Made by a program: the position numbers and the translations under genes. DNA of 64,000 nt. Origin: a virus. Of the stretch, positions 11,030-62,183 are shown one piece after another. Location of the stretch: positions 48,369-112,368 of IMG/VR virus record IMGVR_UViG_3300028874_000010. One strand, written 5' to 3'. The first letter of the stretch is position 1; every line of letters starts with the position of its first letter. The notes under the pieces were generated by a model. It saw only the letters and a program-made list of their open reading frames with translations. It was not told where the DNA came from and made no database searches.

Positions 11030-11060
11030 AAAAGGAGACTCATTGCGAGTCTCCTTTTTT
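11030..11060. terminator. Bidirectional terminator between convergent genes
   Basis: GGAGACTC / GAGTCTCC stem with flanking A- and T-tracts, serving both the HNH gene (+) and the CCA-adding gene (-). Confidence 0.92.
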
Positions 11061-12159
11061 ATAGTGCATTAATTCTGGCATTAAAGATTAAATCTTTAAT
11101 TTTTGTTTTATCTTCTGTTGATAACGCAATCTCGGCAACATCGACATTCAAAATCTTATCAATATCACTATAAATTAATTCATGCGGCATCAGCCCAACT
11201 CCTTTAACATGTTCGCCGATATATCGACAAGCAGTTAGAACAACTTTGAATCTTTCAGGTCTCCTGAATAAATCAACTCTATTAAACAATTGGACCCGTT
11301 CTCTCTTACTTAATATTTGATATTTAGCAAGAGCCCCGCATTCGTTATTTACCAATGTAGAGACTTGTTCACAATCAACTGAGATAGTCCAACGTTTGTA
11401 ATCTTCTTTATTTTTAAATCCATTTGCTATGATAGCAAATCGAACTTCAAGCGGAGCATTATTCTGAGCTGCTTCATTTAATGAGTGTAGCCCACTGTCA
11501 CGAAGCCACTGACCTGTTGTACGAGTTCCGCCCCCAAACCATTCATTTAAATGATGATTAGCGCCAACATACGACAGTATTACAAACATCGCTGAAGGTC
11601 TTGCTTCCATCAGACCTTTCTTAAATTCCATCCAAACTCGTTCCGGGGTTAATGACTTGAATTCGCCAGAATCTACTATTTGACGCATAAGTTCTATAGT
11701 ATCTTCGTGGATAGTGAACTCGGTATATCTTGCAGCAAATCTGGCGATTCTGAGAACCCGAACCGGATCTTCAGCAAAGGCTTCTGATGTGTGTCGAAGA
11801 ATTTTATTCTTTAAATCTTCTTGGCCACCATACGGGTCAATGACGTTATTGTTTTCATCCATCGCCATCGAGTTGATTGTTAAGTCGCGCCGAAAAAGAT
11901 CTTGCGCTAATGTAACAGTCGGATCAAAGTCAACTTTAAACCCGTTGTACCCAGGAGAAACCTTACGTTCATTTCTGGCTAATGCATATTCTTCACCAGT
12001 GATTGGATGGAGGAAGACCGGAAAGTCTGCACCAACTTGCTGGAAATTAAGTTCCAACATGGCTTCAGTTGTGGCGCCAGTTACCACATAATCTCGATCT
12101 CTGGATTCTATTCCGAGCAGCCGATCCCTAACTGCGCCACCAACTAAATATGTTTTCAT
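11059..12159 (-). CDS. cca: CCA-adding enzyme (tRNA nucleotidyltransferase)
   Basis: 366 residues. The class II nucleotidyltransferase head is clear: [19 protein letters not shown], the neck [26 protein letters not shown] and [15 protein letters not shown]. It adds or repairs the 3' CCA of tRNAs. At least four tRNAs of this phage lack a complete encoded CCA, so the enzyme is useful for them and for tRNA repair. The C-terminus is closer to the bacterial short form without an HD domain. Confidence 0.96.
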
Positions 12160-12169
12160 TATATCCCCT

Positions 12170-12352
12170 TTAATTTATTAATTCTTTAAATCCTGTAATT
12201 GGACCCCAAATACCGACCATTCGGTGATTAAAGCTAATGGCAGTTTCAAACCCTTTATCTTTTGAATATTGGATGGCTAGATCAATGGTATCGAATTCTT
12301 GATCGGCCCAATACCGCATGTTAGTATAATACACTCGGTATTTGTTAGACAT
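12170..12352 (-). CDS. Hypothetical protein, 60 aa
   Basis: Small protein rich in Tyr/Trp, beginning [15 protein letters not shown], with a pattern like a one-domain alpha/beta fold. It lies just upstream of cca, probably on the same transcript. Function unknown. Confidence 0.6.
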
Positions 12353-12422
12353 GATTTTATCCTAGTTCGTTGCCATTGACCCTATTATACTATAACTTTT
12401 TAGAAATATGAAATACTATATT

Positions 12423-12914
12423 TCAAGAATAATAAAGAACTTGGCCACGCACCATCTCAATTTGATCGCCATCTGGCAAGATCAAAAGCAAAGAATTTTT
12501 TCGGATGATTGGTTTGATCTGTGTTGGAATAAACTTTGATGTACAAACATGGCTATTCCATTCAACACATGGATAGAATAAAGTTTGGATTCCGCGAGGG
12601 AGAGTATGACTGTCGATGATAGTATCGATAGAAATTTCTTTAACTTGACTGGCTAAAAGCTGGAAAGCTTTTTCTGATTCTGGATCAACCAAGTTAAAGA
12701 ATTTACCTTTGTCTCGGATGAAACAAAAAGCTTGATACGCAGCAAGAATGCTGGTCTTAGTAATGCGGAAGGTGTGGGTCATGATATTAGTCAATGCTAA
12801 TTCAATTGGGCCTTCATAGAGTGTAAACCCTTGGCCAGGTTCTCCGATCTCCATATTCTTTACTTCGCAATGGAGATGTCCACCGATTTCCTTTACGCAT
12901 GACAATTCTAGCAT
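12423..12914 (-). CDS. Hypothetical protein, 163 aa
   Basis: Not recognised. Soluble, with an N-terminal LSCVKEIGGHLHCEV segment and several cysteines but no paired metal motif. A TATAAT-like element lies between it and the 60-aa gene (around 12385), so it may end a separate transcript. Confidence 0.6.
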   Translation of the reverse strand: MLELSCVKEIGGHLHCEVKNMEIGEPGQGFTLYEGPIELALTNIMTHTFRITKTSILAAYQAFCFIRDKGKFFNLVDPESEKAFQLLASQVKEISIDTIIDSHTLPRGIQTLFYPCVEWNSHVCTSKFIPTQIKPIIRKNSLLLILPDGDQIEMVRGQVLYYS

Positions 12915-12993
12915 ATGGCACCTTTCAAGTTGTTACAACGTTGAAAATCCCATCTGCACTTATCCTATCTCAAAAATGGCAATAAAGAAACAA

Positions 12994-13851
12994 TTATTTT
13001 GTGGTCTTTATTAATGAAACCAATTCAGCCATTACTTGTTTAAATTCTGGACCAACAAACTGTGGTGCTGCATTAATCTCCATAACATACCACTTACCAG
13101 TTTTGCTGTGCTGGATCAAATCAACACCAGTAATCCCAAACCCCATAGCCTTACAAGCTTTGTTAGCTAATGATTCAGCCTCTTTAGATAGGTCAATAAA
13201 TTCTTGAGATCCACCGAGCGAAACATTATTTCTAAATTCGCTCTTACTTGCAGTAATACGTTTAATTGAATAGATCAATTTATCTTTTAAGTAAAAAGTT
13301 CTGAAGTCACCATCATTAGGAATAAATTCCTGAAAGATAAAAGATTCATCTTTATTCTTGTTTAAGAAAGCAGATAAACTATCTTTGGTATCATGTTTGA
13401 CGATCCCTTTACCTTGAGACCCATTTACAATCTTTGAAACAATCGGAAGATTCAAAGCTTTAATAAGTTCGGAACAAGAAACTTTTCCTGCATGACCAAT
13501 GATTGTTTTTATTTGTGAGACCCCTTCCATTTTCATGATAACACTCTGAACTAATTTATTTTCTAGTTCATGAGGAGTTCCATATGAAAGAAATCCAATC
13601 TTGTATTTGTTAATGTATTTTATGACGCATGAATACATATCAGTATTATCATGAATTGCACCTGCCATGATAAATTTGAATTTGGATATAGGAATATTTT
13701 TAGCAAAGACTTCACCATCTTCAATAACTAACTCATTCCATGAAACAAAATATGGCCTATCAAGTTCTTTTTCTAGGAAAGCTTGTTTGCCTTCAGCTGC
13801 AAATCCTATGAATAGATATTTGAGACTGATTTCTTCTAAGAACATTGACAT
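12994..13851 (-). CDS. ATP-grasp ligase, RimK/glutathione-synthetase-like
   Basis: 285 residues from MSMFLEEISLKYL. A longer frame would run into tRNA-Ser, so this start is preferred. The C-terminal half has the ATP-grasp pattern: SKIVNGSQGKGIVKHD (glycine loop), ESFIFQEFIP, DFRTFYL and the metal-binding GVDLI ... VMEINAAPQF. Such enzymes join an amino acid or small molecule to a carboxylate, for example glutamates to ribosomal protein S6. The target here is unknown. Confidence 0.82.
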   Translation of the reverse strand: MSMFLEEISLKYLFIGFAAEGKQAFLEKELDRPYFVSWNELVIEDGEVFAKNIPISKFKFIMAGAIHDNTDMYSCVIKYINKYKIGFLSYGTPHELENKLVQSVIMKMEGVSQIKTIIGHAGKVSCSELIKALNLPIVSKIVNGSQGKGIVKHDTKDSLSAFLNKNKDESFIFQEFIPNDGDFRTFYLKDKLIYSIKRITASKSEFRNNVSLGGSQEFIDLSKEAESLANKACKAMGFGITGVDLIQHSKTGKWYVMEINAAPQFVGPEFKQVMAELVSLIKTTK

Positions 13852-20734: not shown

Positions 20735-20758
20735 ATTATTCTATTTTTAAATATCGGG

Positions 20759-33395: not shown

Positions 33396-33429
33396 TTTAT
33401 ACATCTGATTTCATTTTATTGATATGAAC

Positions 33430-33524
33430 TGGCGGAGGACCGGGGTCTCGAACCCCGACGTCTTATTAGGGACACACTACGTTCGAAGTAGTTTCCGCTA
33501 GGCCAAAACTCGGATAAGTCCTCC
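33430..33524 (-). tRNA. tRNA-Ser(CGA)
   Basis: Class II with long variable arm; loop TTCGAAC. Encoded GCCA end. Confidence 0.9.
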
Positions 33525-33529
33525 AATCT

Positions 33530-34238: not shown

Positions 34239-34266
34239 TGGTGGACCACCTAGGTAACGATCCTTC
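34239..34266 (-). other. Orphan 3' half of a tRNA
   Basis: T-arm with loop ATCGTTA followed by GGTGGTCC-ACCA. No matching 5' half (GGACCAC) lies upstream. A 15-nt stretch is identical to the T-arm of the Met-like tRNA near 54.3 kb. Confidence 0.5.
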
Positions 34267-34276
34267 CATTTATTAC

Positions 34277-34366
34277 TGGTGAATGTCGATAGGAATTGAA
34301 CCTTCTTTGGCCTATTAAGGCATCAGCTTATCGGCTGACCGCGCTACCATTACGCACTACACATTC
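34277..34366 (-). tRNA. Abnormal class II tRNA, anticodon undetermined (GAU-like)
   Basis: 90 nt with acceptor GAATGT / ACATTC, encoded ACCA, D-arm GTGCGTAATGGTAGCGC and a GCCT/AGGC variable hairpin. The anticodon stem TCAGC / GCTGA closes a 6-nt loop CGATAA that lacks U33. The closest reading is an Ile GAU with one base missing. Could be a degenerate or specialised tRNA. Confidence 0.55.
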
Positions 34367-34659: not shown

Positions 34660-34726
34660 ATTTACTAAGTGCATTCAGATAAAAACTCTGGCATGTATTC
34701 CTATTCCATCACATGTGCATTCGTAA

Positions 34727-34916
34727 TTAATTTAAAGTTGAAGTCTACAAAATTTGTATGAGGATTCGAACCCATGTCTCCGACTTTCAAGATCGGCGCC
34801 TTACCACTTGGCCAACAAATTCAGAAATTTCAAATCTTGGCGCGTCAACACCAAGATCACTTATTCAGGTAGACTCAACTGTCGAAACAGTTGACGCTAT
34901 TTCAACTTTAAATTAA
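34727..34916 (-). ncRNA. Structured RNA enclosing a tRNA-like domain
   Basis: Leader and trailer of the tRNA-like gene inside are complementary: a perfect 16-bp pair (34727-34742 with 34901-34916) continued by GTCTAC / GTAGAC (34743-34748 with 34869-34874). The leader arm carries an extra CAACTGT-CGAA-ACAGTTG hairpin, and a further ATCTTGG / CCAAGAT hairpin lies next to the tRNA. The whole looks like one folded RNA of about 190 nt. Confidence 0.5.
34750..34821 (-). tRNA. Class I tRNA with UGA anticodon (Ser-like anticodon, Gln-like D-arm)
   Basis: About 71 nt; acceptor AATTTGT / ACAAATT; loop CTTGAAA gives UGA; variable loop is short; no CCA encoded. The D-arm GGCCAAGTGGTAAGGC resembles tRNA-Gln. 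Charging identity is unclear. Confidence 0.7.
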
Positions 34917-34923
34917 CTACTCG

Positions 34924-35000
34924 TGGTGGCCATCCTCGGACTCGAACCGAGAACATTTACGCTCTAAACGTAACGCGTCTTCCAATTGCGCCAGACGGCC
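34924..35000 (-). tRNA. tRNA-Leu(UAG) with short variable loop
   Basis: 77 nt; loop TTTAGAG; leucine-type D-arm, A73, CCA encoded; 5-nt variable loop ATGTT. Confidence 0.85.
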
Positions 35001-35032: not shown

Positions 35033-35064
35033 AAAAGGCGAATCGTTTAGGATTCGCCTTGATG
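35033..35064 (-). terminator. Intrinsic terminator after small late gene
   Basis: GGCGAATC / GATTCGCC stem followed by six T on the minus strand. Confidence 0.88.
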
Positions 35065-40780: not shown

Positions 40781-41221
40781 TCACTTTTGGTGAAGTGTAT
40801 CCCAAAACTTTTCCATGATTTTCATTGAGGCTTCATCTGGGTGAACCCACTCTGGTACCGCTGGATGATTTACTTCCCACAATCGATATGTGTTTCTAAT
40901 CGTTCTTCCAACAGTCGAATGCAATTTAATCAAATCTTCTTTTTTAATACTAGTCCAAGCCTCTATACCTTTATCATCCATATTATTTTTTAAATCGGCC
41001 ACAATTTCGTCGACCGTCATAAAGGCTTTCTCTTCAATAACTTCTTCGTATGGTTCTAAATCTTCATCACTAAGCTTCTTATCAGCCACATCATAAATAT
41101 CACTGACAAATTGTGAAATTTCAATATAGTCACCACTCCAGCCATATCTCTTAGCTACTTCAAGAAGTGTTGTTAAGAATTCCGGAGTTGCTAAAGTTTT
41201 AATTATTGCTGTATTATTCAT
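40781..41221 (-). CDS. Hypothetical protein, 146 aa
   Basis: Acidic helical protein; its start overlaps the RNA ligase stop by 4 bp. Function unknown, but co-translation suggests a partner of the ligase or phosphatase. Confidence 0.6.
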   Translation of the reverse strand: MNNTAIIKTLATPEFLTTLLEVAKRYGWSGDYIEISQFVSDIYDVADKKLSDEDLEPYEEVIEEKAFMTVDEIVADLKNNMDDKGIEAWTSIKKEDLIKLHSTVGRTIRNTYRLWEVNHPAVPEWVHPDEASMKIMEKFWDTLHQK

Positions 41222-41898
41222 CCTTCCCTCAATGTGTTTTTGTCAGTTTTAAAAAACCAATGGCCATCTTCAGTCTTAACATGATTTGCTCTAACACATT
41301 TCGCCGCATTCTTTTTCATATCATTGTAATGAAAAGATTGAGCATTAGAGATAACATACCCTTCATCTTTTTCTGGATCTAATCCAAACCCAAGATGCTT
41401 GACTGGAACTATACTCAAAGCAAGATGCATCAAGTTCAAATCTTTGAATGATCCTCTTTTTAAAACAGGGACCATACTCAAATCAAGACATTCACAAAAT
41501 TCTTGCATATCATCTAGTGACAATCTAGTATTTGTTTCATCCCAGATGGCAAACACATAAAAGAAAGACTCTAGATCATGATAAGGAATTGAGTGAAGAG
41601 CTAACATATTCTCGCCGCAGATTCTCCAACCATCGGGAATATCTCTATAAAGTAATGCAGCTAGTTGTTTGATATGATGGCGTGACCAATGATCTTTTGA
41701 ATCTAATGATCTTGCGTGGGAATATCCTCTGCCAATAGTGGTATTCTCACCATCCATTTTTAAGGATGCATAACAGTCTTCCATCGGAATGAAATATTCT
41801 ATCAATTCTTGATTAGTCAGAATTTTGTCATCTGATGTAGAAGATTGAGTCCATGGCAAATGGAAAGTCGTTGGGAATTTATATTCTGGTGTATTCAT
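41218..41898 (-). CDS. RNA ligase (nucleotidyltransferase family)
   Basis: 226 residues. The adenylation motif KMDGEN (K-x-D-G) near residue 47, RICGENMLALHSIPY, FFYVFAIWD (motif III), EGYVIS (motif IV) and KCVRANH (motif V) are all present. It should seal RNA, for example tRNA cut in the anticodon loop. Its partner genes (histidine phosphatase downstream of its start by 4-bp overlap, 2H phosphoesterases elsewhere) could supply end-healing. Confidence 0.85.
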   Translation of the reverse strand: MNTPEYKFPTTFHLPWTQSSTSDDKILTNQELIEYFIPMEDCYASLKMDGENTTIGRGYSHARSLDSKDHWSRHHIKQLAALLYRDIPDGWRICGENMLALHSIPYHDLESFFYVFAIWDETNTRLSLDDMQEFCECLDLSMVPVLKRGSFKDLNLMHLALSIVPVKHLGFGLDPEKDEGYVISNAQSFHYNDMKKNAAKCVRANHVKTEDGHWFFKTDKNTLREG

Positions 41899-53270: not shown

Positions 53271-53348
53271 TGGTAGTCTGTATCGGATTCGAACCGATGA
53301 CCTACTGTTTTGAAGACAGATGCTCTAACCAGACTAAGCTAACAGACC
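53271..53348 (-). tRNA. tRNA-Glu(UUC), second copy
   Basis: 78 nt; loop CTTCAAA gives UUC; A73, CCA encoded; G1-U72 pair. Confidence 0.85.
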
Positions 53349-61602: not shown

Positions 61603-62183
61603 GCTAACTCTAATAGTTCTCTTGTTATGTTTGCTCTTGCGGCTTGTTCATAAATCTGATACATCTCCGGAGTTTGAAATATTCTCGGCTGAGCTAGAAA
61701 ATGATTTAACGCTTTAGTTCTACCGAGCTGCCATTGTCGATCACTATATACCGAATATTCTTTTCTAGTATTTGAAACATAAGAGTCATAAACATCTTGT
61801 GACCGACCTAAGATCATTAAATCCAAATCAACAATACGTAAGGCATCCGGGTTATTGATAATGGCACCACCCAAATGTTTGGTTGATAGAACAAGAACTT
61901 TAGCTTTATCAACCGTCTCTCTTTTCAGAGTTTTGAAATACTTGGGATAATCTTGTTCAATTAAAGCCGCACTATTTTCTTCGTTCAAATCGCTAAAAGT
62001 GTCATGTATTGCATCATGATACAAAATCGCAATATATTCTTCAATAGAAATATCCCCAAAATGGGTTTCATATCCAGAGAGCATAGCATCAATATGATCC
62101 ATTGTATGATAGAACCTATTTTGATCTATGTAATATGGTTTAACCAAAGTCCATAAAGCAATTTTGAACGAAGAAAAATTCAT
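61599..62183 (-). CDS. HD-domain metal-dependent phosphohydrolase, 194 aa
   Basis: Starts MNFSSFKIALWTLVKPYY. FYHTMDHIDAMLSG and AILYHDAIHDTFSDLNEENSAA match the RxYHxxxH...FHDxxY...NE-SA family. The longer frame upstream lies in the neighbouring gene. Substrate unknown. Confidence 0.8.
   Translation of the reverse strand: MNFSSFKIALWTLVKPYYIDQNRFYHTMDHIDAMLSGYETHFGDISIEEYIAILYHDAIHDTFSDLNEENSAALIEQDYPKYFKTLKRETVDKAKVLVLSTKHLGGAIINNPDALRIVDLDLMILGRSQDVYDSYVSNTRKEYSVYSDRQWQLGRTKALNHFLAQPRIFQTPEMYQIYEQAARANITRELLELA

Follow-up and report, generated by a model that had tools for sequence, protein, structure and literature searches.

A tRNA-like gene enclosed in a leader-trailer helix within the tRNA cluster of a putative large phage

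The tRNA cluster and the enclosed unit

The window analysed here is the whole stretch of 64,000 nucleotides spanning bases 48369-112368 of virus record IMGVR_UViG_3300028874_000010, which holds 112,368 bases in all. It looks like part of a large phage, carrying among others a PrkA-type kinase gene with relatives in phage records as large as 642 kb. The Rfam tRNA family RF00005 yields 15 matches in the window at E ≤ 0.001, one of them under the family cut-off. The unit under study, a tRNA-like gene with its leader and trailer, lies in a minus-strand tRNA cluster, straight after tRNA-Leu(tag) and ahead of tRNA-Tyr, Trp and Glu. The features are given below, those of the cluster in minus-strand order, followed by two genes elsewhere in the window.

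35035-35060 (-): intrinsic-terminator-like hairpin upstream of the cluster
34924-35000 (-): tRNA-Leu(tag), first tRNA of the cluster, directly upstream of the unit
34901-34920 (-): 5' (leader) arm of P1, the outer leader-trailer helix, RNA GTAGTTAATTTAAAGTTGAA, beginning 3 nt past the CCA of tRNA-Leu(tag)
34875-34894 (-): leader hairpin P2, UCAACUGU-UUCG-ACAGUUGA, an interruption of the 5' strand located between P1 and P1b
34869-34874 (-): 5' arm of P1b, the 6-bp inner extension, GUCUAC (DNA as given GTAGAC)
34833-34858 (-): second leader hairpin P3, 11 pairs, UGAC loop
34749-34822 (-): tRNA-like gene, called tRNA-Ser(tga) by ARAGORN, RF00005 47.9 bits
34743-34748 (-): 3' arm of P1b, GUAGAC (DNA as given GTCTAC), beginning 2-3 nt after the acceptor stem
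34723-34742 (-): 3' (trailer) arm of P1, UUCAACUUUAAAUUAAUUAC
11059-12159 (-): CCA-adding-enzyme-like protein (PolyA_pol head and RNA-binding domain), phage-encoded
41218-41898 (-): RNA ligase (PF09414), phage-encoded

The CCA-adding-enzyme-like protein could complete tRNAs that lack an encoded CCA. The RNA ligase possibly serves in tRNA repair, and its connection to the unit is conjectural. Three further tRNA-related sequences were observed on the minus strand of the window. One is a tRNA of ordinary class-I shape with a UCA anticodon (53271-53348, 68.4 bits for RF00005), which ARAGORN labels SeC and which could read UGA stop codons. The other two, a class-II Ser(cga)-like sequence (33420-33526) and a degenerate Ile-like sequence with a 6-nt anticodon loop (34260-34345), are not called by ARAGORN.

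Fold of the unit and its odds by chance

The tRNA-like gene scores well above the RF00005 gathering score of 29 and folds into a cloverleaf with a 7-bp AU-rich acceptor stem, a 3-bp D stem, a CUUGAAA anticodon loop, a 4-nt variable loop and one extra base in the T-arm. An earlier note, made from the sequence of the window, had described a UGA (Ser) anticodon and a missing encoded CCA, both of which are confirmed. It had also called the D-arm Gln-like, which does not hold: when the core was aligned against 435 other tRNAs, the best match was another gene of this phage, tRNA-Ser(tga) at 20756, once its variable arm had been removed, by a small margin over a tRNA-Thr. Against the phage records, the gene gave short matches to other tRNAs only.

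The window holds two other tRNA-Ser(tga) genes. Serine identity in bacteria depends on the shape of tRNA-Ser, including its variable arm, on G73 and on acceptor pairs (PMC9976931). The tRNA-like gene has the anticodon loop of bacterial tRNA-Ser(UGA), yet it differs in lacking CCA and the long variable arm, and in carrying A1-U72 and U73 in place of G1-C72 and the G73 discriminator. Given the absence of the long arm and of G73, serylation and ordinary serine decoding by this gene appear unlikely, judging from the sequence.

The leader-trailer pairing that had been noted, a perfect 16 bp (34727-34742 / 34901-34916) with a 6-bp extension, is present as described, and at 95% complementarity the arms reach 20 nt (34723-34742 / 34901-34920). 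Together they make up a 26-nt inverted repeat that is collinear apart from one leader-side insertion, and this insertion lies between AGTTGA direct repeats. With 20-nt arms and 6 further bp, the helix reaches the length of about two turns looked for in the substrate of a double-strand nuclease. The CAACTGT-CGAA-ACAGTTG hairpin of the leader was likewise found (34876-34893), its loop reading UUCG on the transcribed, minus strand. The earlier note had one leader hairpin; P3, which it did not have, is the stronger of the two. About 10 nt, mostly unpaired in the prediction, separate P3 from the tRNA, and a 46-nt stretch of leader lies between the unit's helix and the acceptor stem.

The 200-nt fold has a predicted energy of -64.8 kcal/mol (z = -5.87), equalled by none of 200 shuffles. 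Predicted pair probabilities are high for P1, P2 and P3 (P1 pairs mostly above 0.97, P3 pairs mostly above 0.9), about 0.65 for P1b, and lower in this context for the cloverleaf, at about 0.1-0.5. As a separate observation, GUUGACGC, which caps P3, shows 8 nt of complementarity with GCGUCAAC, which precedes P2 in the leader (window 34840-34900, minus strand), a possible alternative pairing or pseudoknot.

Under a Markov-3 model built on the window, the expected number of perfect inverted repeats with at least 16 bp and a span of at most 400 nt is 0.02 per 64 kb, and 4 of 300 simulated windows (about 1%) held a 16-bp inverted repeat with a span of at most 260. Among 432 surveyed phage tRNAs, a perfect leader-trailer match of at least 16 occurs on the window tRNA alone, the next best being 12. 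Since the repeat encloses a tRNA and carries a nested extension, which by our estimate, made outside the simulation, lower the probability by further orders of magnitude, a chance origin of the helix is very unlikely. A 15-bp inverted repeat at 61975-62177, located within an ORF, was discounted as chance. Readings of the unit as an integron attC site or as a terminator were dropped after inspection of the sequence.

Relatives of the unit and helices on other phage tRNAs

The closest relative found is record G001 (184,871 bases), whose PrkA is 81% identical and whose tRNA cluster is syntenic. Its tRNA-Leu(tag) and upstream stretch, including the terminator-like hairpin, align to the window at 68%; a similar hairpin with a T-run stands at the same place. 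The unit is absent from that cluster, where the gene after tRNA-Leu(tag) is Leu(gag). Given that the spacers of G001 do not align with those of the window, a clean empty site is not demonstrable there. The earlier note had set against its own reading an RNA that is processed to an ordinary tRNA and has flanks varying freely among relatives; the half that concerns relatives does go against it, as the unit is missing from G001, the sole syntenic relative compared. Two tRNAs of G001, Trp(cca) and Glu(ttc) (L127:1752-1839 and 1936-2019), are 84-88 nt, long for these isotypes.

The unit occurs once in the 112-kb record. Its arm-plus-hairpin pattern matched none of 2.9 million viral contigs. Searching 28 related phage records with the 200-base unit returned nothing beyond short pieces, tRNA-sized or due to chance, and strict patterns for a class-I UGA tRNA had no match in viral and genome contigs. 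The search with the flanking 226-aa protein found no relatives, and that with a 401-aa protein matched G001 only.

Leader-trailer helices were also sought on the tRNAs of other phages. The survey covered 432 tRNAs with flanks in related records, and later 672 called tRNAs in an enlarged set with control phages. Perfect matches between the last 20 leader bases and the first 20 trailer bases were counted, and the expectation was taken from swapped leaders and trailers of different tRNAs. These counts, together with 30-nt flank scores and swapped controls, replaced wide duplex scores (120 x 60 nt), in which neighbouring tRNAs interfered.

One related record, G015 (415,409 bases), presents perfect helices of 8-12 bp on 10 of its 47 tRNAs, with 0.7 expected at 7 bp or more; under the looser 30-nt score the excess shrinks to 13 against 5.5 expected. 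The other 20 surveyed records have at most one case each in 19 instances and two in the remaining one (2.26 expected). The G015 tRNAs concerned (L139:6570-6747 and 11893-13224; L140:12074-12247; L141:15088-15731) are mostly first or second in their cluster or follow a gap. Single cases of a similar extended acceptor helix occur on tRNA-Met(cat) of G011 (L155:6460-6534) and on tRNA-Gln(ttg) of G019, which lacks CCA (L145:9745-9830). No report of helices of such kind on phage tRNAs was found in the literature searched.

The G015 helices continue the acceptor stem and in most of them the leader pairs with N73, C74, A76 and nucleotides beyond, C75 being mismatched in seven of eight and missing in the other two. 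Their sequences differ among tRNAs while the pairs covary: 98 of 110 cells are Watson-Crick, a count inflated by the choice of ten tRNAs with strong helices and one that concerns these abutting helices, not the window unit. Permutation (20,000 shuffles) gave a mean of 52.5 and a maximum of 84 Watson-Crick cells, so that shuffling among the same ten tRNAs fails to reproduce the observed value. In pairing the leader with the 3' side as a continuation of the acceptor, these tRNAs resemble pre-tRNAs with extended acceptor stems, in which the leader pairs with RCCA. The known cases described in PMC10731613 involve one or a few nucleotides and slow RNase P, whereas the G015 helices have 8-12 bp and a mostly unpaired C75, and the RNase-P-proximal leader of the window unit is itself unpaired.

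Given the 46-nt leader gap in the window unit, as opposed to helices that abut the acceptor in G015, the two may not be the same thing. The regularity in G015 is the stronger lead of the two.

Processing helix, masking, stable RNA or decay

The feature observed at the locus is real and in part explained, and its stem is probably a processing or protection device and not the product of chance. The earlier note's suggestion of a structured RNA built around a tRNA-like domain fits the results, as the helix goes beyond chance and the arrangement recurs with covarying sequence in other huge phages. RNase III cuts the leader-trailer helices of pre-rRNA, and two leader hairpins interrupt that of pre-16S rRNA (PMC10250234). 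As in the bacterial pre-16S and pre-23S stems around stable RNAs, leader and trailer of the unit pair into a long helix with hairpins breaking the leader strand, and its 20 + 6 pairs are within their working range (more than 17 bp being required for active 30S). Unlike those stems, it encloses just one tRNA-like gene, in an operon of phage tRNAs, and RNase III cleavage of it is putative. This likeness leads us to favour, with a probability of roughly 0.45, a structured tRNA precursor whose leader-trailer helix, working as the pre-16S helix does, keeps the tRNA insulated and guides its processing.

We infer the course of events, from transcription of the unit through the RNases involved and its maturation to any role of the product, as follows. 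The unit would come second among the genes of a polycistronic tRNA operon of the phage. Its leader would fold on the trailer into a helix of about 26 pairs, interrupted by the leader-strand hairpins and with the cloverleaf at its end, insulating the tRNA domain from its neighbours and marking it to be excised. A compact precursor might then be left either by an RNase specific for double strands, host RNase III being the obvious candidate, or by exonuclease trimming to the helix. As the leader beside the tRNA is unpaired, RNase P could cut this precursor directly, a short way upstream of the tRNA; the 3' end would next be trimmed and the phage enzyme would add CCA. The reading as a processing helix is tempered by the non-conservation of the unit, which the syntenic cluster of G001 lacks, and by the missing CCA and a cloverleaf that the folding model predicts weakly in context.

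A tentative alternative, possible though on the doubtful side, is that huge phages place a chosen subset of tRNAs in leader-trailer helices as a phage-specific module for maturation or masking. The helix would then keep RNase P from entering in the ordinary way and the 3' end from being exposed, until it is opened by another nuclease. The G015 helices, mostly at cluster heads, continuous with the acceptor and with C75 unpaired, would be its usual form, and the window unit an elaborated version with leader hairpins.

Two other explanations are serious rivals. The first, which we consider unlikely, is a stable structured RNA in which the stem is retained and the tRNA-like fold serves as one domain (a decoy, a bait for a protein or nuclease, or another role), comparable to T4 rnaC (species 1) and rnaD (species 2). 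The high predicted probability of the closed helix, the non-standard, CCA-less tRNA-like gene and its redundancy with two other tRNA-Ser(tga) genes all speak for it. The T4 species are likewise RNAs of a phage tRNA cluster larger than a tRNA, and rnaC has a T-arm-like hairpin, CCGGGUUCGAAUCCCGG. In computed folds, however, the T4 species differ, with no leader-trailer helix around a complete cloverleaf. The unit, moreover, scores as a tRNA, having a complete cloverleaf and an anticodon loop of the ordinary 7 nt, and no relatives keeping the whole of it were found.

The second, slightly less likely, is neutral decay: a degenerate tRNA-Ser copy caught in a recent inverted duplication by template switching, its stem functionless. 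The lost variable arm, the extra T-arm base, the missing CCA and the lack of conservation agree with this, as do collinear arms with one leader insertion between direct repeats, which template switching can leave. Against it, perfect 16-bp arms coexist with an intact cloverleaf, and such helices recur around tRNAs elsewhere.

The earlier note had also proposed a small mobile element with inverted ends, and had suggested a search for other copies. A non-autonomous, MITE-like element with tRNA cargo would account for arms in the form of terminal inverted repeats and for a closest relative without the unit, but the search turned up no second copy in the record, the 28 related records or the 2.9 million viral contigs, and the flanks (...CATTC / TCGTGG) have just TC, 2 bp, in common, which is no convincing target-site duplication; we regard this reading as very improbable. 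An equally improbable one is a chance inverted repeat or assembly artefact. Roughly 1% of simulated windows do hold such a repeat somewhere, but the one observed surrounds a tRNA, is joined by a nested collinear 6-bp extension, sits mid-contig and has arms separated by unique sequence.

At stake is why large phages carry dozens of tRNAs, how these are matured, and how they are kept from host defences that cut tRNAs. If the favoured reading is true, processing stems of the rRNA type are used on tRNAs as well, and a helix that locks the ends of precursor tRNAs, recurring with unrelated sequence, would be a concrete, testable step in phage tRNA biology.
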